A program made the translations under genes and the position numbers. This document shows positions 2,221-34,858 of a DNA stretch of 37,215 bases, in pieces (positions within the stretch are counted from its first letter, which is position 1; each line of letters begins with the position of its first letter). This stretch comes from a virus. The notes under the pieces are model-generated. The model was not told the origin of the DNA, made no database searches, and saw only the letters and a list, made by a program, of their open reading frames with translations. The DNA is taken from positions 1 to 37,215 of the IMG/VR virus record IMGVR_UViG_3300003187_000167. One strand, written 5' to 3'.

Positions 2221-2630
2221 GGGCGGTCCTTTTTGTGCGCATCCGCGAGACCTGCTTTGCTGTCCTCCAGAGCTGAGAGGGCGCGCTCCGAGATAGCCTT
2301 TAAGGCGCCTCGACCGACCTTCGCGAAAACCTTGCTATCGTCGGATGCCCGCATCGCAGCAAGGGCCGCAATCCATACCAGCGCGTCTTTCAGCGCATTG
2401 CTGGCGGAGGCGTTGTATGCCTCGACCGCAGCCAGTATCATCGGCGCAATGGTTTCGCGGTTTCGATCGCTCATCGGCTGCTCGAAAGGCCCGTGAACTG
2501 CGCACCGCTGCTTGTCATAGGCAGCCACCGCAGATTTCAGAGCATCATCACCACTAGGCTCTGGCCGGACACTAGCGGATGCCAACCCAGATCCTTCCTC
2601 TACGCGCGAGATGAGTGAGGAGAGGGTCAT
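2217..2630 (-). CDS. Hypothetical helical protein
   Basis: The product has 137 residues, Ala-rich and mostly helical after residue 30 (for example ALKDALVWIAALAAMRA). No family is recognised. The ATG at 2628-2630 overlaps the stop of the upstream methyltransferase gene, and the 3' end overlaps the DUF551-like gene by four bases. Codons about 12-26 lie on one copy of the dispersed repeat described separately, so this N-terminal stretch may have been acquired with the repeat rather than conserved for function. Confidence 0.68.
   Translation of the reverse strand: MTLSSLISRVEEGSGLASASVRPEPSGDDALKSAVAAYDKQRCAVHGPFEQPMSDRNRETIAPMILAAVEAYNASASNALKDALVWIAALAAMRASDDSKVFAKVGRGALKAISERALSALEDSKAGLADAHKKDRP
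2554..2594 (+). repeat. Dispersed repeat, copy A
   Basis: On the plus strand this stretch reads CTCTGGCCGGACACTAG followed by CGGATGCCAACCCAGATCC. Closely similar sequences occur near 12303-12338, 13053-13094 and 36998-37034. The core GCGGATGC is shared by all four, with extended agreement on both sides (CTGGCCGGA with the 12303 copy, TAGGCTCTGG and GCGGATGCCAAC with the 36998 copy). This copy lies antisense inside codons about 12-26 of the 2217-2630 gene. Confidence 0.6.
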
Positions 2631-3091
2631 GCGGCCCTCGCGGTCTGTCGCGACAAGGCCTTGGCTTGCCGATCATAGAGAACGACGTTGACCGTAGCCG
2701 CGAGGTTCATGCAGAACGCCGTGGGGATCATGATGCGCAGCGGGCACCATTCTAGGGTGGCCGCGCCAAGCGTCCCGTCCTCCGGGCCGAAGACATAGAA
2801 CGCGCTCTCAGGGTGCTCGAACCGATGCAACGGCATCGCACCCTCGACGAGATCGACGGCCACCGGCACAGCGCCGAACGGGATCATCTGCTTAAGGTCA
2901 TCGCCGCGCAGGATGGGGATATGGCGCTCCGCCTTGGTCGTATTGGTTGCGCAGCGAATGCGCTTGCCCTGCGTCCGGTCGCCAGCGATAGCGACCATTG
3001 AAGCGCCGTAGCAATGCGCTGCACGAAGGACGCCGCCCAGGTTGTCGGTGTTCTTGATGCGGTGAAGGCCGATTGCTGAATAGCCGCGCAT
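2627..3091 (-). CDS. SpoU/TrmH-family RNA 2'-O-methyltransferase-like protein
   Basis: The product has 154 residues and looks like a single SPOUT (knotted) domain, the minimal TrmL-like size. Motif 1 is NTDNLGGVLRAAHCYGA (Arg 23), motif 2 is FGPEDGTLG (101-109), and motif 3 is IPTAFCMNLAATVNVVLYD (122-140) with Asn 129. In the family these residues bind S-adenosylmethionine in the trefoil knot and methylate a ribose 2'-OH in tRNA or rRNA. The ATG at 3089-3091 follows a strong purine-rich ribosome site (GGGAGGGAAGG). The substrate cannot be told from sequence. It lies in the leftward operon, so an RNA-modifying or defence-evading role is possible but unproven. Confidence 0.83.
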   Translation of the reverse strand: MRGYSAIGLHRIKNTDNLGGVLRAAHCYGASMVAIAGDRTQGKRIRCATNTTKAERHIPILRGDDLKQMIPFGAVPVAVDLVEGAMPLHRFEHPESAFYVFGPEDGTLGAATLEWCPLRIMIPTAFCMNLAATVNVVLYDRQAKALSRQTARAA

Positions 3092-3092
3092 G

Positions 3093-3230
3093 CTACCTTC
3101 CCTCCCCATCGACGTGCTCGTACAGTTCGGGCTTTGTCGGCTTATGGAACATCGCGCGAGCAACCAGCCAGACGATGCCGACGATGAAAGTCAGGGTGAT
3201 GGAAAGGCCGAGGAGATCGAGAAGGGTCAT
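3093..3230 (-). CDS. Small single-pass membrane protein (45 aa)
   Basis: The frame MTLLDLLGLSITLTFIVG continues through IVWLVARAMFHK to VDGEGR and TAG. Residues about 5-27 form one membrane helix followed by a basic and then acidic short cytoplasmic tail. The ATG at 3228-3230 overlaps the TGA of the upstream gene as ATGA, and its stop lies within the ribosome site of the methyltransferase gene, so it fills the gap between the two. No family is recognised. Confidence 0.7.
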   Translation of the reverse strand: MTLLDLLGLSITLTFIVGIVWLVARAMFHKPTKPELYEHVDGEGR

Positions 3231-6903: not shown

Positions 6904-6932
6904 TGCCGCCGTCTCCTCTGTCTATGGAGACG

Positions 6933-6961
6933 AACATATACACGCGCCGTGTATGACGCAA
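6933..6961 (-). promoter_or_regulatory. Leftward early promoter
   Basis: On the minus strand TTGCGT (6956-6961) and TATGTT (6933-6938) are separated by exactly 17 bases, giving a sigma70-type promoter with predicted start near 6926, ahead of all leftward genes. The spacer carries a perfect operator palindrome, so repressor binding would block polymerase. This is the same architecture as the rightward promoter at 7654. Confidence 0.72.
6938..6954. promoter_or_regulatory. Repressor operator 1 (perfect palindrome)
   Basis: ATACACG-CGC-CGTGTAT, with seven-base arms that match perfectly around a three-base centre. It lies within the spacer of the leftward promoter. Its relatives at 6969 and 7661 flank the repressor gene region, which identifies the set as the phage operators. 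Confidence 0.8.
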
Positions 6962-6968
6962 GCGTTAT

Positions 6969-6985
6969 TTTCACGCCCCGTGTAT
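6969..6985. promoter_or_regulatory. Repressor operator 2 (imperfect)
   Basis: TTTCACG-CCC-CGTGTAT: one perfect arm, and five of seven positions kept in the other. Its centre is 31 bp from that of operator 1, close to three helical turns, so two repressor dimers could sit on the same face of the DNA. It is upstream of the leftward -35 box. Confidence 0.68.
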
Positions 6986-6991
6986 TTTCTC

Positions 6992-7025
6992 GATTCCGTC
7001 CTGACTCCCCCTGACAGGATGACTC
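6992..7025. promoter_or_regulatory. Cluster of three GANTC (CcrM-type) sites
   Basis: GATTC at 6992-6996, GACTC at 7003-7007 and GACTC at 7021-7025 fall in 34 bp of non-coding DNA upstream of the 7078 gene. In Alphaproteobacteria GANTC is methylated by CcrM, and GcrA acts at promoters carrying these sites. The phage encodes a GcrA-like protein at 8986. I could not place a convincing -10/-35 pair here, so the promoter itself is inferred. Confidence 0.4.
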
Positions 7026-7077
7026 TGCGCTAATGTTCGTGTTACGTTCTGTTGCGGCTCAAAAGGGGAGGAACGAT

Positions 7078-7281
7078 GTGGGTCACGTAGACGCTCAACA
7101 GAGTGAAGACGTGCTCTGGCTCAAGCGCCAAGCGCTACAGATCGTCATGCAGTTGCCGGACGATCGGCAAGATGCTCTTCGCGTTCTTGATTTCGCGAAG
7201 GAGCTTGTACTTACCTATTTGGGGGATGAGCCTGAAGCCGACAAAGGTGGGGCCGAGATCGTCCAGCTAGTCGCGCGCTAA
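7078..7281 (+). CDS. Hypothetical small acidic protein convergent with the repressor gene
   Basis: The product has 67 residues from GTG at 7078-7080, chosen because GGGGAGGA lies six bases before it; an in-frame start at 7033 has no ribosome site. The sequence is helical (LWLKRQALQIVMQLPDDRQ, DALRVLDFAKELVLTYLG) with an acidic end. No family is recognised. It converges on the repressor gene and the two stop codons overlap by four bases. It is transcribed from the GANTC-rich region next to the left operators, so it may take part in the lysis/lysogeny switch. Confidence 0.6.
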   Translation: MGHVDAQQSEDVLWLKRQALQIVMQLPDDRQDALRVLDFAKELVLTYLGDEPEADKGGAEIVQLVAR

Positions 7282-7637
7282 GCTTTTTCCTCAGCCGGGG
7301 CGCTTTCCTCGGCTCTTGCGCGCCTTATCTTCTCGATCAAGTCTCCAGGGAGGTAGCGCTCATATTGCTCCCCCTGGTAGATCCAATCCAACGAGACGCC
7401 CAGCCGACGCGAGAGAACCAGGGCGGTATCAACCGAAATCCGGTTCGTCCCTTTCTCCAGATTATTCCACGCGTTCGTCGCTAAGCCCGTCAGCACGCAG
7501 AACGCGGTTTGTGCGCCGCGCCCATCTCCGGACACAGCCTTCCTCAGTAGTACCAGGCGCTCGGCAATCTCGTCGAGCGATGCGCGCGGGGCTTTAGCCA
7601 TGCGCGGATAATCATGAATCGCAGCGCAGGCTTCCAT
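7278..7637 (-). CDS. XRE-family phage repressor (CI-like, without a peptidase domain)
   Basis: The product has 119 residues. The HTH spans about 38-88: GAQTAFCVLTGLATNAWNNL, EKGTNRISVDTALVLSRRLG, VSLDWIYQG. It ends with a charged tail, and there is no S24 self-cleavage domain, so RecA-driven autocleavage is not expected. The gene is divergent from the Cro-like gene, with an operator between them, which identifies it as the likely lysogeny repressor. Neither possible start (7637 or the internal ATG at 7599-7601, 107 residues) has a clear ribosome site; a GAATC site lies at 7616-7620 near the starts. Confidence 0.8.
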   Translation of the reverse strand: MEACAAIHDYPRMAKAPRASLDEIAERLVLLRKAVSGDGRGAQTAFCVLTGLATNAWNNLEKGTNRISVDTALVLSRRLGVSLDWIYQGEQYERYLPGDLIEKIRRARAEESAPAEEKA

Positions 7638-7689: not shown

Positions 7690-7908
7690 ATGGATACGCT
7701 CTCCCAAACCGGCTCGGTCATTGACGCCCTCGGCGGGACCGCAAAAGTCGCCACGATCACTGGCCGCAAGCCGCAGGCCGTCTCGAACTGGCGGAAGCGG
7801 GAGACATTCCCGCCCGACACCTTCCTCGTCCTATCCGGCGCTCTGACGCTCAAGGGGAAATCAGCCCCGCCTACGCTTTGGGGCATGTCGAGCGGGAGGG
7901 CAGCGTGA
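7690..7908 (+). CDS. Cro/YdaS-like HTH regulator
   Basis: The product has 72 residues. Residues about 8-52 form a Cro/YdaS-type helix-turn-helix (VIDALGGTAKVATITGRKPQ, AVSNWRKRETFPPDTFLVL). The start at 7690-7692 is set by the domain; a longer frame from 7654 would run through the promoter. It is the first gene of the rightward early operon, divergent from the repressor, and its stop overlaps the next GTG. By position it should turn down the repressor during lytic growth; that role is inferred. Confidence 0.82.
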   Translation: MDTLSQTGSVIDALGGTAKVATITGRKPQAVSNWRKRETFPPDTFLVLSGALTLKGKSAPPTLWGMSSGRAA

Positions 7909-8165
7909 GCGCCAGCGCCAAAGACCGCATGGAGCGCATTCTCCATCTCCTGGCCGAGATCGACGAGATCAAGGAAGTCATCCGCGAGGTCTACGCGGAG
8001 GAGAAGGCTGACGGCGGTGACAAGACCGCCATGGGCGCGGCCATCGCCATCATCCGCAAGCGCGCCAAGCTTGGCGCCGATGTCATCGAAGAGCGTGAAG
8101 GCCTCGTCGCCACGTATCTCGCGGCTCACGACGCCTCGCACACGCATGCACGTGAGGCAGCCTGA
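7905..8165 (+). CDS. GapR-like (DUF2312) DNA-binding protein
   Basis: The product has 86 residues from GTG at 7905-7907, which overlaps the Cro-like TGA (GTGA) and follows GGGAGGG. The block DRMERILHLLAEIDEIKEVI, REVYAEEKADGGD, AIIRKRAK and EEREGLVATYLAAH follows the GapR family (DUF2312), whose Caulobacter member binds overtwisted AT-rich DNA ahead of replication forks and is needed for normal cell division. The C-terminal HDASHTHAREAA is extra. A phage copy could help phage replication or compete with the host protein; this is inference. Confidence 0.85.
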   Translation: MSASAKDRMERILHLLAEIDEIKEVIREVYAEEKADGGDKTAMGAAIAIIRKRAKLGADVIEEREGLVATYLAAHDASHTHAREAA

Positions 8166-8166
8166 C

Positions 8167-8247
8167 ATGGGCGCTCTCATCCTCATCCCCCCGGTAGTCA
8201 TCACGGCCCTTGGCTTCGTGCTCTTCGCTCTGACGAGGCTGTCATGA
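8167..8247 (+). CDS. Membrane micropeptide (26 aa)
   Basis: MGALILIPPVVITALGFVLF then ALTRLS. It is nearly all one membrane helix. The ATG follows GAGG by about nine bases, and its stop overlaps the next ATG as ATGA, so it fits the coupled layout of the operon. No family; expression is unproven. Confidence 0.55.
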   Translation: MGALILIPPVVITALGFVLFALTRLS

Positions 8248-8342
8248 GCCCGGCCACCCGCATTTATGGCGCGACCGTTTCTCTAGCGACGCTGGTTTTC
8301 GCCTGCCGCTCTCTCGTGCTCCTGCTGGAGATTCGCGGATGA
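8244..8342 (+). CDS. Small membrane protein (32 aa)
   Basis: MSPATRIYGATVSLATLVFA then CRSLVLLLEIRG. It has one membrane helix with a basic N-terminus. ATGA overlaps occur at both ends, and GAGG lies five bases before the ATG. No family is recognised. Confidence 0.52.
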   Translation: MSPATRIYGATVSLATLVFACRSLVLLLEIRG

Positions 8343-8617
8343 GCGTCACCCCTAGCCAGCGCGGGGGCTTTGTCTCCTCCCCCAGCCCGCGCCGCCTGCC
8401 GGGGGGCTTCGTGCTCCCCGGACTTTCTCTCGTCCATCGTCTCGCGAACCCCTGCAAGAACCCGCGCCACGATGTCTCCAAGCCGCTCCATGAGCCGTCC
8501 TTCCTTCGTCCGGTGACGCCCTCAACGTCACCCTTCGAAGGACCACGCACATGGAAGCTCAGACCAACCGCTTGGCTGTCGCAGCCAAGGTCTATCAGTC
8601 GAGTAAGCCTGACATGA
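8339..8617 (+). CDS. Uncertain Ser/Pro-rich open frame (92 aa)
   Basis: The frame starts with ATG 8339-8341 in an ATGA overlap with the previous gene, with GGAG eight bases before it, so it could be translated. The product is Ser/Pro/Arg-rich with no recognisable fold and would overlap the well-supported 8551 gene by 67 bases. A minus-strand frame (8264-8491) covers the same DNA and is equally unconvincing. Treat 8343-8550 as largely unassigned; it contains an inverted repeat at 8503-8541. Confidence 0.25.
   Translation: MSVTPSQRGGFVSSPSPRRLPGGFVLPGLSLVHRLANPCKNPRHDVSKPLHEPSFLRPVTPSTSPFEGPRTWKLRPTAWLSQPRSISRVSLT
8503..8541. repeat. Two-tier inverted repeat before the 8551 gene
   Basis: CCTTCG-TCC-GGTGACG, a seven-base loop, then CGTCACC-CTT-CGAAGG. 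The arms of 7 and 6 bases pair perfectly around a symmetric 3/3 internal loop. It ends nine bases before the ATG at 8551, and its right end forms part of the GAAGGA ribosome site, so as RNA it could mask translation; as DNA it could be an operator. Confidence 0.6.
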
Positions 8618-8982
8618 CGATAGCCATCCAGGCACGCGCTCACATCGGCGCCGTGCTCCAGTTTGTTGCGCCACAACTCCCGCTCAAGTCGGCATTGCCG
8701 AGGGCGGCAGCATTCATCGGCATCAACGCCCGCCGCGCCCGCGCTCTCTGGAATCGGGAAGCCCGCGCCGTTCTCGCTGACGAGATTCACGCCTTGGAAG
8801 CCGCTCGCGCCCGCATCGCTGAGCGCATCATCACTCGGGACATCCAGAACCATGCAAACACGATGGAGCTCTATGCTGCGCGGCTGGCTAGTGTCGATCC
8901 GGAAGGCAATCGGACGGAAGTGGCTCGCCTCCGTAAGCTGGCAAGCCGGGCGCGCCATTTCCTTGATTGCGGGAAGGCGTAA
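8551..8982 (+). CDS. Hypothetical helical protein, possibly DNA-binding
   Basis: The product has 143 residues. A helix-rich N-terminal half contains AAFIGINARRARALWNREAR, which resembles an HTH recognition region, followed by two long helices (VLADEIHALEAARARIAERI and TRDIQNHANTMELYAARLAS) and a basic end. No family is assigned. A GAAGGA ribosome site lies eight bases before the ATG, inside the end of an inverted repeat. It lies in the rightward early operon. Confidence 0.75.
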   Translation: MEAQTNRLAVAAKVYQSSKPDMTIAIQARAHIGAVLQFVAPQLPLKSALPRAAAFIGINARRARALWNREARAVLADEIHALEAARARIAERIITRDIQNHANTMELYAARLASVDPEGNRTEVARLRKLASRARHFLDCGKA

Positions 8983-8985
8983 GCC

Positions 8986-9525
8986 ATGAGCCTGCATTTC
9001 AGTCAGCCGCAAGGCCTGCCCTACGCTCGTACCGTGGCCCGTCGCCCTCAGGTGGCCCCAACGCTTTCTCCTGAAATGCGGGAGGCCGTAGTCGCAGCCT
9101 TCAACGAGGGGCAGACGTACTCCCAGATTGCGGACCACCTCAACGTGGCCCGCAACGTCATAGCCGGCGCAATCTTCCGCGCGAGGAAGCGAGGCGAAGT
9201 CCAGCGCGAAAAGCTGCCGACGCGCGCCCGCAGGGTTTCGGCTCAGTCGCATCGCCAGGAGCCGCCGAAACCGGACGAGTTCGCCCCGGTGATCGAATAT
9301 GCGCCTCTGCGCGTCAGCCTCTTCAATCTCAAGGCCGAGCATTGCCGCTGGCCGCTTTGGGCGGCTGACACCCCGCTGTCCGAGAAAAGGTTCTGCGGTC
9401 GCCCGGCAAAGGTTGGCCGGCCCTACTGCACCCATTGCGAGGGTCTGGCTGTCGTCCCACGGCGCACCGACAGCTTCGACAAGAAGCACGGCATCTTCAA
9501 GCTGACGAAGATGGGGAGGCGCTGA
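8986..9525 (+). CDS. GcrA-family cell-cycle regulator-like protein
   Basis: The product has 179 residues. Residues about 27-70 (LSPEMREAVVAAFNEGQTYS, QIADHLNVARNVIAGAIFRA) match the GcrA N-terminal HTH, and residues about 108-155 (LFNLKAEHCRWPLWAADTPL, EKRFCGRPAKVGRPYCTHC) match the Cys-containing GcrA C-terminal domain that contacts sigma70. A variable basic linker joins them, as in the family. Host GcrA activates promoters with methylated GANTC. The phage copy may redirect host or phage promoters; this is inferred from family and from GANTC sites at 6992-7025. Confidence 0.85.
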   Translation: MSLHFSQPQGLPYARTVARRPQVAPTLSPEMREAVVAAFNEGQTYSQIADHLNVARNVIAGAIFRARKRGEVQREKLPTRARRVSAQSHRQEPPKPDEFAPVIEYAPLRVSLFNLKAEHCRWPLWAADTPLSEKRFCGRPAKVGRPYCTHCEGLAVVPRRTDSFDKKHGIFKLTKMGRR

Positions 9526-9827
9526 TGCTCACGGCTTCGGCACGCCAGGACATCGCCCGAGCTTACGGCGAAGGCTTGCTCATCAAGCACATCGCTTATC
9601 GGCATGGCATCTCGGAAGGCCATGTCAGCGTCATAGCGAAACGTGAAGGGCAGCGGCCTCGCCACACCGGCCGCCCCGCCGCCCCTCGCGCCGCCAACCC
9701 CGCTGAGGTGCTGGCACTCTTCCGGTCTGGGCTGGACACAGTCAGCATCGCCGCGCGCTTGATGCTGACCCAGTGTGCGGTCGCGAACGCTCTCGCCGAC
9801 GCTCGCGATCGGGAGCACAGCCGATGA
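9525..9827 (+). CDS. Small HTH protein with two HTH-like segments
   Basis: The product has 100 residues. Two HTH-like segments are visible: ARAYGEGLLIKHIAYRHGIS with EGHVSVIAKREG (about 9-43) and EVLALFRSGLDTVSIAARLM with LTQCAVANALADA (about 60-93), joined by an RPRHTGRPAAPRA linker. The start is the ATG at 9525-9527, overlapping the previous stop (TGATG). It is probably a DNA-binding regulator with unknown target. Confidence 0.75.
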   Translation: MLTASARQDIARAYGEGLLIKHIAYRHGISEGHVSVIAKREGQRPRHTGRPAAPRAANPAEVLALFRSGLDTVSIAARLMLTQCAVANALADARDREHSR

Positions 9828-10195
9828 AGGTCGTGCAGCTCGATCTTCCGTTGCCGGTCTCCGCCAATCGCATCTGGCGCACGACTAAGACCGGGCGGAC
9901 ATACCTCAACCCGCAATACAAGGACTGGCGGAAGGCCGCGCTGACAAGCCTCTGGACGCAGAAGCCGGCCGGGGGTTTCCCGTATTTCTCTGGCGCCTTC
10001 GACGCCCAGATCACCGTCGCGCTCAAGATGCGTGGCGATATCGACAACCGAATTAAGCCGCTTCTCGATTTTCTGGCCTCTGCCGGGATTATCGAGAACG
10101 ACAAGCACGCCCATGGCGCCAGCATTGCGCGGTCGGCCGATGTCCGTGCCGGCATGTGTCGCGTCCACGTCTACGAGACGAAGGAGGCCGCATGA
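9824..10195 (+). CDS. rusA: RusA-family Holliday junction resolvase
   Basis: The product has 123 residues and would cut four-way junctions formed in phage recombination and replication. The family pattern is complete: PVSANRIWRT, GDIDNRIKPLLDFL (Asp 72, Asp 74, Lys 79) and IIENDKHAHGASI (Asp 93), which correspond to the acidic metal site and the essential Lys. The ATG overlaps the upstream TGA. It pairs functionally with the ERF/YqaJ/NinB genes of the leftward operon. Confidence 0.93.
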   Translation: MKVVQLDLPLPVSANRIWRTTKTGRTYLNPQYKDWRKAALTSLWTQKPAGGFPYFSGAFDAQITVALKMRGDIDNRIKPLLDFLASAGIIENDKHAHGASIARSADVRAGMCRVHVYETKEAA

Positions 10196-10683
10196 TGAAA
10201 GGCCCGTATCAGGCCATCGCTGATTATATGCACCGCCGCATCCTTGAGAACCTCAACGAGGTTGCGGGGCGCGTCGAATCCAAGGGGATGTCCCCGATTG
10301 AGGGGATATTCTTCGCAGCGCTCTGGAACATATCAGAGCTGGAATCGCCGTTCGGCTGCCCTGTTGTCGGGTTCGAGCCCCAAGAGGGTCAGCTTGCCAT
10401 CCTTGGCCAAGCGCGGATTGAGAAGTTCCGCGTAGACTTCATGGTCACGGTTCGGACGGCAAACGGGAAAGAATACAAGCGCCTCGTCGTCGAATGCGAT
10501 GGGCACGACTTCCACGAGCGCACGAAGAAGCAGGCCAAGAACGATCGGTCACGCGATAGGCGCCTGCAAGAGCTGGGGTACACGATTTACCGGTTCACTG
10601 GGTCGGAAATCTACACCAACCCAGTCAAGTGCGCTCAAGATGTTCTCCGGTGGGCTGATGCTGCTGCGGGGTTCCCACTATGA
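10192..10683 (+). CDS. DUF559/Vsr-like PD-(D/E)XK nuclease-like protein
   Basis: The product has 163 residues. The pattern is an N-terminal SPIEGIFFAAL (Glu 37), FRVDFMV (Asp 82), RLVVECDGHDFHER (Glu 101, Asp 103, His 105), KNDRSRDRRLQELGYTIYRF and a final SEI, typical of DUF559/Vsr-like nucleases. Two adjacent ATGs (10192 and 10195) follow AAGGAGG by four or seven bases, so the start is uncertain by one codon. DNA cleavage is likely from the family; the substrate is unknown. Confidence 0.82.
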   Translation: MMKGPYQAIADYMHRRILENLNEVAGRVESKGMSPIEGIFFAALWNISELESPFGCPVVGFEPQEGQLAILGQARIEKFRVDFMVTVRTANGKEYKRLVVECDGHDFHERTKKQAKNDRSRDRRLQELGYTIYRFTGSEIYTNPVKCAQDVLRWADAAAGFPL

Positions 10684-11570
10684 GCCGCGCATGGATGCCC
10701 CTCTATGTCGCTGACTACCTGGCTGACACCGGCCATCTCAGCGCGGCTGAGCATGGGGCCTATCTCCTGCTCATCATGCACTATTGGCAAAACGGCGGGC
10801 TCCCCAACGAGGACCGTCGGCTAGCCCGTATCGCGCGCATGTCGCCTGCCGAATGGGAAGAGGCCCGCGAAACCCTCTTCGACATGTTCGAGGATGGCTG
10901 GCGTCACCATCGCATCGAGGCCGAATTGAAGGCCGCGCAGGAGATCAGCGAGAAGGCGAAAGAGAAAGCGGCAAAGCGCTGGCAGAGCAAAGGCAGTGCT
11001 GATGCATATGCCGGGGCAGATGCTGTAGCATTGCAGGAGCATGTGCCGCAGCCATGCCAATCACAACCACAATCACATACTCCACCAGACACTAACGTAT
11101 CTGGTGGAGTGGGGCGCAAGGCCCCGCCCGAACATGTCCAGATTTTGGATTGCCTGAAAGCTGTCCTTTCCGAAGACCGCGCCAAGGCCGTGATCGAGCA
11201 TCGGCGGAAGATGAAAAAGCCGCTCGGGCTCCACGGCGCCAAGCTCCTGCTCGCTCAGCTCCAGCATGCCGCAGAGCCGGACAAGGCCGCCGATCTCATG
11301 ATCCTTCGCGGCTGGCAGGGCTTCGAACCCGAATGGGGCGCCAACGCCGGGCTCAAGCTAGCCTCATCGCCAAGCCCCTCGAACGGCGCCGCTGCACAAG
11401 TCTTCGTCGAGATCGGCACCGAGGAGTGGGACGCCTGGACGGCCTACAAGGGCAAAAAGCCCCCGTTCAAATACTACCCCGAGCATCAGGCGGACGGCTG
11501 GCTTTTCCCATCTCGCATGCCGCCGGCCAAGAACCCCGACAACTGGAACAAGGGAGAGCGCGCGGCATGA
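10680..11570 (+). CDS. DUF1376 (YdaU-like) replication protein
   Basis: The product has 296 residues. The N-terminal domain (about 5-85: MPLYVADYLADTGHLSAAEH, GAYLLLIMHYWQNGGLP) is DUF1376, found in phage proteins at the replication-initiator position. A charged helix and a Gln/Pro/Ala-rich linker (about 100-150) follow, then a helical C-terminal domain ending WLFPSRMPPAKNPDNW. The gene position after nucleases and before Lar/exonuclease genes matches phage O-type genes. Its linker-coding DNA holds direct repeats and a perfect inverted repeat, a possible origin. Confidence 0.85.
   Translation: MSRAWMPLYVADYLADTGHLSAAEHGAYLLLIMHYWQNGGLPNEDRRLARIARMSPAEWEEARETLFDMFEDGWRHHRIEAELKAAQEISEKAKEKAAKRWQSKGSADAYAGADAVALQEHVPQPCQSQPQSHTPPDTNVSGGVGRKAPPEHVQILDCLKAVLSEDRAKAVIEHRRKMKKPLGLHGAKLLLAQLQHAAEPDKAADLMILRGWQGFEPEWGANAGLKLASSPSPSNGAAAQVFVEIGTEEWDAWTAYKGKKPPFKYYPEHQADGWLFPSRMPPAKNPDNWNKGERAA
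11058..11110. repeat. Direct repeats and 11-bp inverted repeat inside the replication gene; origin candidate
   Basis: CAATCACA occurs at 11058-11065 and 11070-11077 (12-bp period), directly followed by ACTCCACCAGA (11079-11089), a 10-base loop and the perfect complement TCTGGTGGAGT (11100-11110). Phage origins often lie inside the initiator gene, as in lambda O. There is no T-tract, so it is not a classical terminator. Confidence 0.45.
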
Positions 11571-13626: not shown

Positions 13627-14019
13627 ATGGCGAAGGCAGGCCGCAAGCGTAAGGACGTGCCCCGGACGAAATCAGGGCTGCCGAGCCGTGCAGGTCAGTA
13701 CAAGGGCACCTGCGAAAGGGGCGTCTACATCATGACCGCTGACGGGTCGGGATGCATCAAGATCGGCATCAGCAATGGCCCTGCGCGCCGAAGCGACGGC
13801 ATTCAGACCTCCAACCCGTTCCCGGTGAGGCTTTACGCCTTCTGGAGCCTGGGCAACGAGGCTTCGCGTCGGCTTGAGCTTGAATGCCACAAGAGGCTTC
13901 GCCAGCGGCATGTCCACGCCAGCGGTGAATGGTATCGCATCGCTCCCGATGTCGCAGAGAGTTTCGTCAAGACAGTCGCGGCAGAGTTGGCAATCGACAT
14001 GGCATCGGAGGCAGCATGA
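13627..14019 (+). CDS. GIY-YIG-like (MUG113/T5orf172) protein
   Basis: The product has 130 residues. After a basic N-terminus (MAKAGRKRKDVPRTKSG) the domain reads GVYIMTADGSGCIKIGISNG, RRSDGIQTSNPFPVRLYAFW, LELECHKRLRQRHVHASGEW and YRI. This matches the second half of the 1301-1783 protein, so the phage carries two versions of the domain, one with and one without an HTH. Nuclease activity is possible but unproven. Confidence 0.8.
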   Translation: MAKAGRKRKDVPRTKSGLPSRAGQYKGTCERGVYIMTADGSGCIKIGISNGPARRSDGIQTSNPFPVRLYAFWSLGNEASRRLELECHKRLRQRHVHASGEWYRIAPDVAESFVKTVAAELAIDMASEAA

Positions 14020-14732
14020 GCAAGGCAGGTAGGCGCAAAGCCCAATCACCGATCAGCCTGGCGGGGAAGATCAGGCAACCCGAGATCGTCTCCATGCCGC
14101 GCGCCGTGGAGGAGATGCATCATGTCGATGGCACGACCACGCGTCGCGACCTAGGCGCCGTCGTGCCGCTGTCATCCTACGTTCAGGCCGGCATCAACCC
14201 CGTCTGCAACATCACCAGCCGAAAGCTTGGGCTTGTGAAATCCGAACTCATGAACCGCGAAGGAATTATCCGGGTGAACCAGGCCCCACTGCAATGGCTT
14301 GCCTCGCGCCAGATGCTTGACCCCGCCGATCGAGAGCGCAATGGCCTCCTTCGAGAAGCCGGCGAGCGCTACTATCGCCACTGGTTCGACGGCGGCTTGA
14401 AGGGCATCGGCGCGCAGAACCTTGACCGCGTGTTCGGCGGGGAAGCAGAGCCCGCCTATCTCACCCCAGCGACTGAATACGCAGCGCAGCACCGCCTCGA
14501 ATACCGCGAGGCCCGCGAGCGCATGGGCTCATGGCTTGCCAAGGTCACCGATGCCGTCGTTTGCGAGGAGCTGACGCTAGCGGATGCCGGCTCCTTCGTT
14601 GGCGATTATGCAAGTTCCAAGACCCGTTCCGCCATTGCCCTGACCATGCTCAAGGCCGGATTGACGACGCTCGTCGAGCATTTCGGCATTAGCCCTGTGC
14701 GCTCGGGCAAGATTCGCCATTGGCGAGATTGA
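14016..14732 (+). CDS. DUF6456-like protein, last early gene
   Basis: The product has 238 residues. The pattern APLQWLASRQMLDPADRERN, LLREAGERYYRHWFDGGL, REARERMGSWLAKVTDAVVC, EELTLADAG and ALTMLKAGLTTLVEHFGI resembles the DUF6456 family (AGERxxxxW, then a GL..L..HYG helix). The function is unknown; a DNA-binding role has been suggested for related proteins. As the last gene before a terminator and the late operon it is a candidate late regulator; this is inference from position. Confidence 0.65.
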   Translation: MSKAGRRKAQSPISLAGKIRQPEIVSMPRAVEEMHHVDGTTTRRDLGAVVPLSSYVQAGINPVCNITSRKLGLVKSELMNREGIIRVNQAPLQWLASRQMLDPADRERNGLLREAGERYYRHWFDGGLKGIGAQNLDRVFGGEAEPAYLTPATEYAAQHRLEYREARERMGSWLAKVTDAVVCEELTLADAGSFVGDYASSKTRSAIALTMLKAGLTTLVEHFGISPVRSGKIRHWRD

Positions 14733-14775: not shown

Positions 14776-14805
14776 GCGCCCGGTTCAGAGATGGCCGGGC
14801 GCTTT
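14776..14805 (+). terminator. Terminator after the early operon
   Basis: GCGCCCGG (14776-14783), an 11-base loop and CCGGGCGC (14795-14802), followed by TTTCGATT. The stem is perfect, the U-tract short. It ends 70 bases after the last early stop codon. Confidence 0.65.
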
Positions 14806-14890
14806 CGATTCTGAGTTCGGGTTTGCACCATTCCACGCTCCCGGGCGAAGCCGCGACCCTGACGAGGTGTGACCGGCAAGCGTCAATAAA

Positions 14891-34143: not shown

Positions 34144-34159
34144 GTTGCCCGGAGAATCC

Positions 34160-34858
34160 ATGAATCTCGCGACGTTCTTCGACTCCGCGCGCGCTAGCGT
34201 ATTCTCCGGGAAAATCCGACAGGAGCAGGTTGACGGCTGCAACACCCTTATTGCGGCGATGGAGGCGGCAAAGTGGCCCCTGTCATGGGCAGCCTATGGC
34301 TTGGCCACCGCCTTCCATGAGACGGCCGCCACCATGCAGCCCATTGCGGAATACGGGAAGGGCAAGGGGAAGGCCTACGGCACGCCAGACGCGAAGACAG
34401 GGCAGACCTATTATGGCCGTGGCTTCGTGCAGCTAACCTGGCTCTTCAACTACCAGAAGGCGCAGAAAGAGCTTGGCTATCCGCTGGTGGCAAACCCGGA
34501 CCTTGCCATGCAGCCCGCCATTGCGGCGGCGATCATGATCAAGGGCATGGCCGAAGGCTGGTTCACCGGCAAGTCGAACAAGACCTACCTCGATCAGAGC
34601 CCGCCCGACTATCGCAACGCCCGCCGCATCATCAACGGCATGGACAAAGCCGATTTGATCGCGGGCTACGCCAAGTCATTCGAGGCGGCGCTGAAGGCGG
34701 CTGGCTACGGTGCTCCCGAGCCCGCCAACACCGCGGACGCCGTCCCAGTCGAAGACCTCCCGACGAAGCCGGCCGAGCCTCCGATGCTGCCTGTTCCCGA
34801 ACAGCCCCTCTGGCCGTCGCTTTGGGGTCTCATCAAATTCCTCATCAAGGGCAAGTGA
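34160..34858 (+). CDS. Endolysin, GH19 chitinase-like
   Basis: The product has 232 residues. YGLATAFHETAATMQPIAEY (Glu 55, Glu 64) and YYGRGFVQLTWLFNYQKAQK are the GH19-like lysozyme pattern; AAAIMIKGMAEGWFTGKS and RNARRIINGMDKADLIAGYA complete the domain. A Pro-rich linker and a hydrophobic end (PLWPSLWGLIKFLIKGK) follow. It cuts the peptidoglycan at lysis. ATG 34160 is chosen for GGAG five bases upstream. No signal peptide is seen, so release depends on the holin. Confidence 0.9.
   Translation: MNLATFFDSARASVFSGKIRQEQVDGCNTLIAAMEAAKWPLSWAAYGLATAFHETAATMQPIAEYGKGKGKAYGTPDAKTGQTYYGRGFVQLTWLFNYQKAQKELGYPLVANPDLAMQPAIAAAIMIKGMAEGWFTGKSNKTYLDQSPPDYRNARRIINGMDKADLIAGYAKSFEAALKAAGYGAPEPANTADAVPVEDLPTKPAEPPMLPVPEQPLWPSLWGLIKFLIKGK

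Follow-up and report, generated by a model that had tools for sequence, protein, structure and literature searches.

GapR-like and GcrA-like proteins of phage type in the putative early region of a probable alphaproteobacterial phage

GapR is essential in Caulobacter and has been used to read positive supercoiling. It belongs to the UPF0335/DUF2312 family (PF10073; PDB 6cg8, 6jyk, 6ozz), and Caulobacter GcrA to PF07750 (PDB 7ye1, 5yix). Phage versions of GcrA have already been published (PMC3556154, PMC6630229, PMC11309003). Those of phiCbK (gp222) and Atu_ph08 (gp5) come from alphaproteobacterial phages, as probably does the protein described here; both phages are of other types than ours, and the available text of their reports makes no mention of a GapR partner (PMC3556154, PMC6630229). 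The cargo table for phiLM21-like Sinorhizobium prophages has a GcrA regulator (5) and UPF0335, which is the GapR family (1), entered separately and with the name GapR unused (PMC12429752). DUF2312 proteins of phages in GenBank (for example RHph_TM3_3_3, PBC5, and the Caulobacter phages DMCA and Cr30) are GapR homologues, like the one studied here; unlike it, some are host-like, with up to 94% identity. Most of them are annotated as hypothetical. In open-licence PubMed Central, we found no paper with a phage GapR or a GapR-GcrA pair as its subject, only annotations (GenBank; PMC12429752). What we would call new is the phage-only GapR branch beside Cro.

Here, we describe a GapR-like and a GcrA-like gene in a stretch of 37,215 bases, an entire IMG/VR virus record (hereafter, the window). 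The original prediction held that both products are made right after a Cro-like protein and together could take over the host cell cycle. This view holds in part. Each protein has the domains assigned to it, whereas the case for a joint takeover is weak.

Layout and regulatory sites of the phage genome

The predicted gene layout is typical of a temperate phage, and relatives and GANTC usage point to Alphaproteobacteria as the host group. An integrase, a YqaJ exonuclease and an ERF annealing protein are encoded on the minus strand, followed by a divergently arranged repressor and Cro-like gene. The repressor, an XRE-type protein of 119 aa (7278..7637, minus strand), matches HTH_3 at 22.2 bits and phage repressor PHROGs. 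The Cro-like HTH gene (7690..7908, plus strand; ATG at 7690 in a frame open from 7654) is the first of the rightward early unit; it matches phrog_8008 (5.7e-7) and, below threshold, YdaS and P22_Cro. The GapR-like frame (7905..8165, plus strand, 86 aa), identified by Pfam score, tree and structure model, begins with a GTG that overlaps the stop of the Cro-like gene. Beyond it come some 386 bp (8166-8550) that include a weak terminator-like hairpin (8399-8421), then a 143-aa protein (8551..8982, plus strand) with no PHROG match and no Pfam match over cut-off, and the GcrA-like frame (8986..9525, plus strand, 179 aa), which starts with ATG and whose stop overlaps the ATG of the next gene at 9525. 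The placement right behind Cro is thus correct for the GapR-like gene but not for the GcrA-like gene, which lies about 1.1 kb downstream.

The unit continues on the plus strand with a small HTH protein bearing a sigma70 region 4-like motif (9525..9827; PF04545 at 20.5 bits, below cut-off), a RusA-like Holliday junction resolvase (9825..10195; PF05866, 34.3 bits; phrog_34), a DUF559-type nuclease, and a DUF1376 replisome organiser or O-like replication protein (10680..11570; PF07120, 88 bits; primosomal PHROGs). Both genes of interest therefore sit within a replication and recombination segment (RusA, DUF1376), and a nucleotide search against phages gave matches mainly to ERF and DUF1376. The last early gene encodes a candidate late regulator (13929..14732, plus strand), and a terminator-like hairpin (14776..14802, plus strand) lies at the boundary between early and late genes, with terminase, portal and head genes downstream. 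From this layout we infer that the GapR-like and GcrA-like genes are early and belong to one operon. Elsewhere in the window, a SpoU/TrmH-type RNA methylase (2627-3163; 55.8 bits) sits amid the minus-strand phage genes, an unusual cargo.

GANTC occurs 55 times in the window against 187 expected. With gene boundaries set by hand, its density between genes is raised 2.57-fold (p 7e-4), and neither the depletion nor the intergenic bias is as marked in any of seven control palindromes. Alphaproteobacteria with CcrM generally show such biases too (PMC3973325), and in this respect the phage seems adapted to a host of this kind. Despite the genome-wide avoidance, three sites fall within 34 bp (6992, 7003 and 7021) between divergent units, in an intergenic region (6930..7032) that also carries operator-like CGTGTAT repeats. 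These repeats (6938, 6948, 6979 and 7671) are present in both divergent regulatory regions and are likely repressor/Cro operators. None of the GANTC sites of the window could be assigned to the GcrA-like protein, and a sigma-70 consensus scan returned no promoter better than chance. A GANTC triple at 34154-34181 was dropped as a promoter element because of its overlap with the start codon of the endolysin gene and the lack of space for a promoter behind the terminator.

The two proteins beside their host counterparts

Both frames are real, and HMM searches place both products over the Pfam cut-offs. The GapR-like protein matches PF10073 (GapR_DNA-bd) at 36.9 bits over residues 8-74 (cut-off 22.6; E 2.7e-9; 1.2e-10 in the search of its own genome). 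A profile built from viral GapR-like relatives only reaches solved GapR (6jyk, E 7e-29; 6cfy, E 6e-31), whereas Foldseek searches of PDB and BFVD with the predicted monomer gave zero matches. AlphaFold predicts three helices (H3-35, H40-56 and H58-85; pLDDT 90), one long and two shorter, the pattern expected of GapR and common to the Caulobacter protein. The two also have in common a VYAE core with K49, G52 and D54, and Y82.

The DNA-facing side has changed. Published DNA contacts of GapR are K34, K42, K49, K56, K59, K60, R63 and K66 (PMC7498317, PMC7373187). With HMMER's gap placement, the corresponding residues are I, R, K, T, G, A, A and K, and 3 of the 8 contacts are retained; the placement of alignment A3 gives 4 of 8, with R63 replaced by K, yet R65 lost to A. 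Unlike Caulobacter GapR, then, the phage protein lacks K34, K56, K59 and K60 (and R63, as HMMER places it), and it has about four extra residues, inserted past the start of the second helix. Among the tetramer positions, Y82 and E74 are retained, and D68, Q67 and G87 are altered. Over the aligned domain the net charge is -4, where C. crescentus GapR has +1, and the region of the second helix carries +3 where that protein has +7, a loss with which DNA binding could be weak. The phage clade nevertheless has a conserved basic run of its own, LRKxxK. Two things had been named as telling against the original prediction, a missing HMM match, and the loss of key interface residues together with no effect on the host cell cycle: both proteins match their families, but most of the DNA contacts of GapR are indeed lost, which goes part of the way to the second.

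In a tree of 60 sequences and few columns, the GapR-like protein falls in a phage-only clade of 23 viral rows (support 99/92), outside the clade of host chromosomal orthologues. It groups there with loci L002 and L011 (95/97), although its row is long-branched and its exact position inside the clade is unsure. All 16 of 16 host rows lie opposite, joined by host-like viral copies. A small Cro-position gene stands immediately upstream, with a coupled junction, in nearly all 27 phage-clade GapR loci, and 4 of 10 such genes scanned pass Pfam HTH cut-offs; at host-type viral GapR loci, a consistent upstream small-gene pattern is absent. Position directly behind a small Cro-position gene, which the Caulobacter gene does not share, is thus a recurrent trait of the phage GapR clade. 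Many proteins of this clade (L015, L006, L017 and others) carry C-terminal extensions of 150-250 aa, the nearest PHROG being phrog_4212.

The GcrA-like protein matches PF07750 at 48.7 bits (cut-off 26.9; E 1.4e-12) from residue 30 to 157, covering profile positions 6-146 of 155 and so both GcrA domains: an HTH (about 26-69) and, after a linker, a C-terminal domain of sigma-interacting type (about 106-163). A profile of viral GcrA-like relatives only matches C. crescentus GcrA 7ye1 over nearly the whole chain (E 3.2e-24), and 7ye1 is also the top Foldseek match in PDB, a weak one (E 0.022) from a model of pLDDT 68. The CRWP, FCG and YC motifs are common to both proteins, as is RNxxxG in the recognition helix. 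Taking the near-invariant columns of 15 host GcrA sequences as the reference, we find 10 of 14 positions retained in the sigma70-interacting domain but only 8 of 24 in the DNA-reading HTH; the 16 lost include W3, W15, K39 and H41, and H146 is replaced by C. The tree puts the protein in a clade with L002, L011 and phage Pam5 (100/94), outside the host orthologues, which form a separate group (76/79). The phage clade keeps an HTH sequence of its own (67-71% identity, window versus L002). By these comparisons, the sigma handle appears conserved and the reading head altered.

Recurrence of the pair

GapR homologues are frequent in phages: tblastn with the C. crescentus protein matches 129 phage records, and an alignment-based scan of viral contigs yielded 38 further loci, where a scan with the single GapR-like sequence yielded 0 relatives. 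Both families exceed their cut-offs in G000, G001, G002, G003, G006, G009, G010, G011, G017 and G039, and tblastn matches to both were also obtained in Rhizobium phage RHph_X2_30 and two 'Microcystis' phages. In the viral records with paired genes, at least 10, the two are on the same strand every time. Of 61 Hyphomicrobiales genomes, a Rhodoplanes genome carries the pair on two contigs, with the genes no more than 1.5 kb from each other; in three other genomes, extra copies lie on opposite strands at a distance of 5-7 kb, and in one of these the GcrA match is below cut-off. The Rhodoplanes contigs (C24 and C25 of G074; L009) are short, carry one GapR-GcrA pair each and are apparently two related prophages; the L009 copy of GapR clusters with the one on that genome's chromosome. 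By the trees, the pairs draw on at least three GcrA lineages and two GapR types.

As a baseline we took 29 TerL relatives as a neutral cohort: GapR was found in 6 (21%), GcrA in 4 (14%) and both in none. GcrA occurs in 5 of 38 GapR carriers, which equals the baseline of 4/29 (p 1.0), and GapR in 4 of 7 GcrA-anchored loci (p 0.08 versus the neutral cohort). By these figures the pair recurs in phages, without clear enrichment over the neutral cohort or a clear association of the two genes.

Two further features of related phages deserve mention. Pam5, Mwe-JY25 (L007, L133) and Mwe-JY07, recorded from cyanobacteria, encode GcrA and/or GapR of alphaproteobacterial type; the host records may be in error, with an associated alphaproteobacterium as the true host. 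DNA methyltransferases occur in early units with GapR/GcrA at L002:12033-12944 and L011:764-1366; none was found in the corresponding early unit of the window.

Possible roles and alternatives

The explanation that we prefer, and which we think has about an even chance of being right, is that these are two phage-adapted early proteins, a handler of phage DNA topology and a sigma70 partner for phage promoters. In a temperate phage of Alphaproteobacteria, both genes would be transcribed from the rightward early promoter, the GapR-like protein being made together with the Cro-like protein. It would form a small helical oligomer, bind phage DNA through its rearranged basic patch and, most likely, help phage replication to handle over-twisted DNA, by analogy with chromosomal GapR, which aids gyrase and topoisomerase IV against such DNA. 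The GcrA-like protein is predicted to use its conserved C-terminal domain to dock on host sigma70, and its altered HTH may bring RNA polymerase to phage promoters or shift it from others; the targets are probably early or middle promoters, not the late operon. Activation of phage genes by a GcrA-type protein has a precedent in Brevundimonas, where a prophage operon for morphogenesis is GcrA-dependent (PMC7987155). The phage-only branches and the altered DNA-contacting parts make it more likely that the proteins serve the phage's own DNA than that they mimic host cell-cycle switches. A stronger version is doubtful. In it, a dedicated family of early proteins derived from GapR and cotranslated with Cro would control how phage DNA is supercoiled during replication, and a sigma70 partner derived from GcrA would use a new reading head to reprogram promoters; phages would have brought the two together several times because jointly they turn the polymerase and replication of the host over to phage use.

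That the two proteins imitate host factors and jointly retune host replication and methylation-dependent transcription, as first supposed, is an improbable reading. GapR and GcrA are families of host cell-cycle factors, the GANTC pattern of the window is host-like, and similar proposals have been made for the GcrA proteins of phiCbK and Atu_ph08 (PMC3556154, PMC6630229). However, both proteins lie outside the host clades with their DNA-contact positions altered, their genes are far commoner apart than together in phages, and the pair is not enriched; Alphaproteobacteria with CcrM generally have this GANTC pattern, and L012, with GcrA but without a match to GapR, shows the depletion too. The two proteins might instead be decoys, the GapR-like one poisoning host GapR through mixed tetramers and the GcrA-like one occupying sigma70 without activating, which would silence host GcrA promoters. 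Partner-facing features are indeed better kept than DNA-facing ones in both proteins (most of the sigma domain; Y82 and E74 against the four lost lysines), but conservation of the clade-specific basic run and HTH indicates selection on DNA binding, and three tetramer residues are altered; we consider decoys about as improbable as imitation. Nothing favours action on host promoters or as decoys.

It is also possible, though unlikely, that the GcrA-like protein is a late-gene activator, a Q analogue working at GANTC promoters. A single extended motif, CGATTCT, stands at 14807, past the early terminator and ahead of the terminase genes; L019-type phages have GcrA where the early region ends; and the Brevundimonas operon (PMC7987155) serves as a precedent here too. 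Across 61 TerL relatives, however, GANTC is not enriched upstream of terS (1.53 per kb against 1.38 in coding sequence), and the GcrA-like gene of the window lies upstream of the replication genes. The late-regulator slot seems to be taken by others: in the window, by the DUF6456-like product of 13929-14732 (PF20057, 19.7-20.7 bits, under the cut-off of 26.3), DUF6456 being a marker of homologues of the GTA activator GafA (PMC9638019), and in related phages by NusG-like proteins (PF02357, 33 bits; L019:14111-14842, directly following the GcrA gene, and L011:6108-6872).

Finally, the pairing itself may be coincidental, two unrelated accessory genes, common in this phage pool, sharing one operon with no joint function. 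We find the arguments for and against this evenly poised, and it is compatible with the best explanation of each protein alone. The neutral cohort, with both families present and never together, and the baseline frequency of GcrA among GapR carriers speak for coincidence; against it stand the 4 of 7 GcrA-anchored loci with GapR, the origin of pairs in at least three GcrA lineages and the constant shared strand in viral records.

Whether or not the pair is coincidental, the reading of two phage-adapted proteins bears on both families. The many phage versions of GapR, with their altered DNA-contact surface, are natural variants in which to test the residues that read DNA twist, and a phage branch fixed beside Cro lets one ask whether phages supply a topology factor of their own. 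The GcrA-like variant offers a natural test of how a sigma70 partner may be retargeted away from methylated GANTC.
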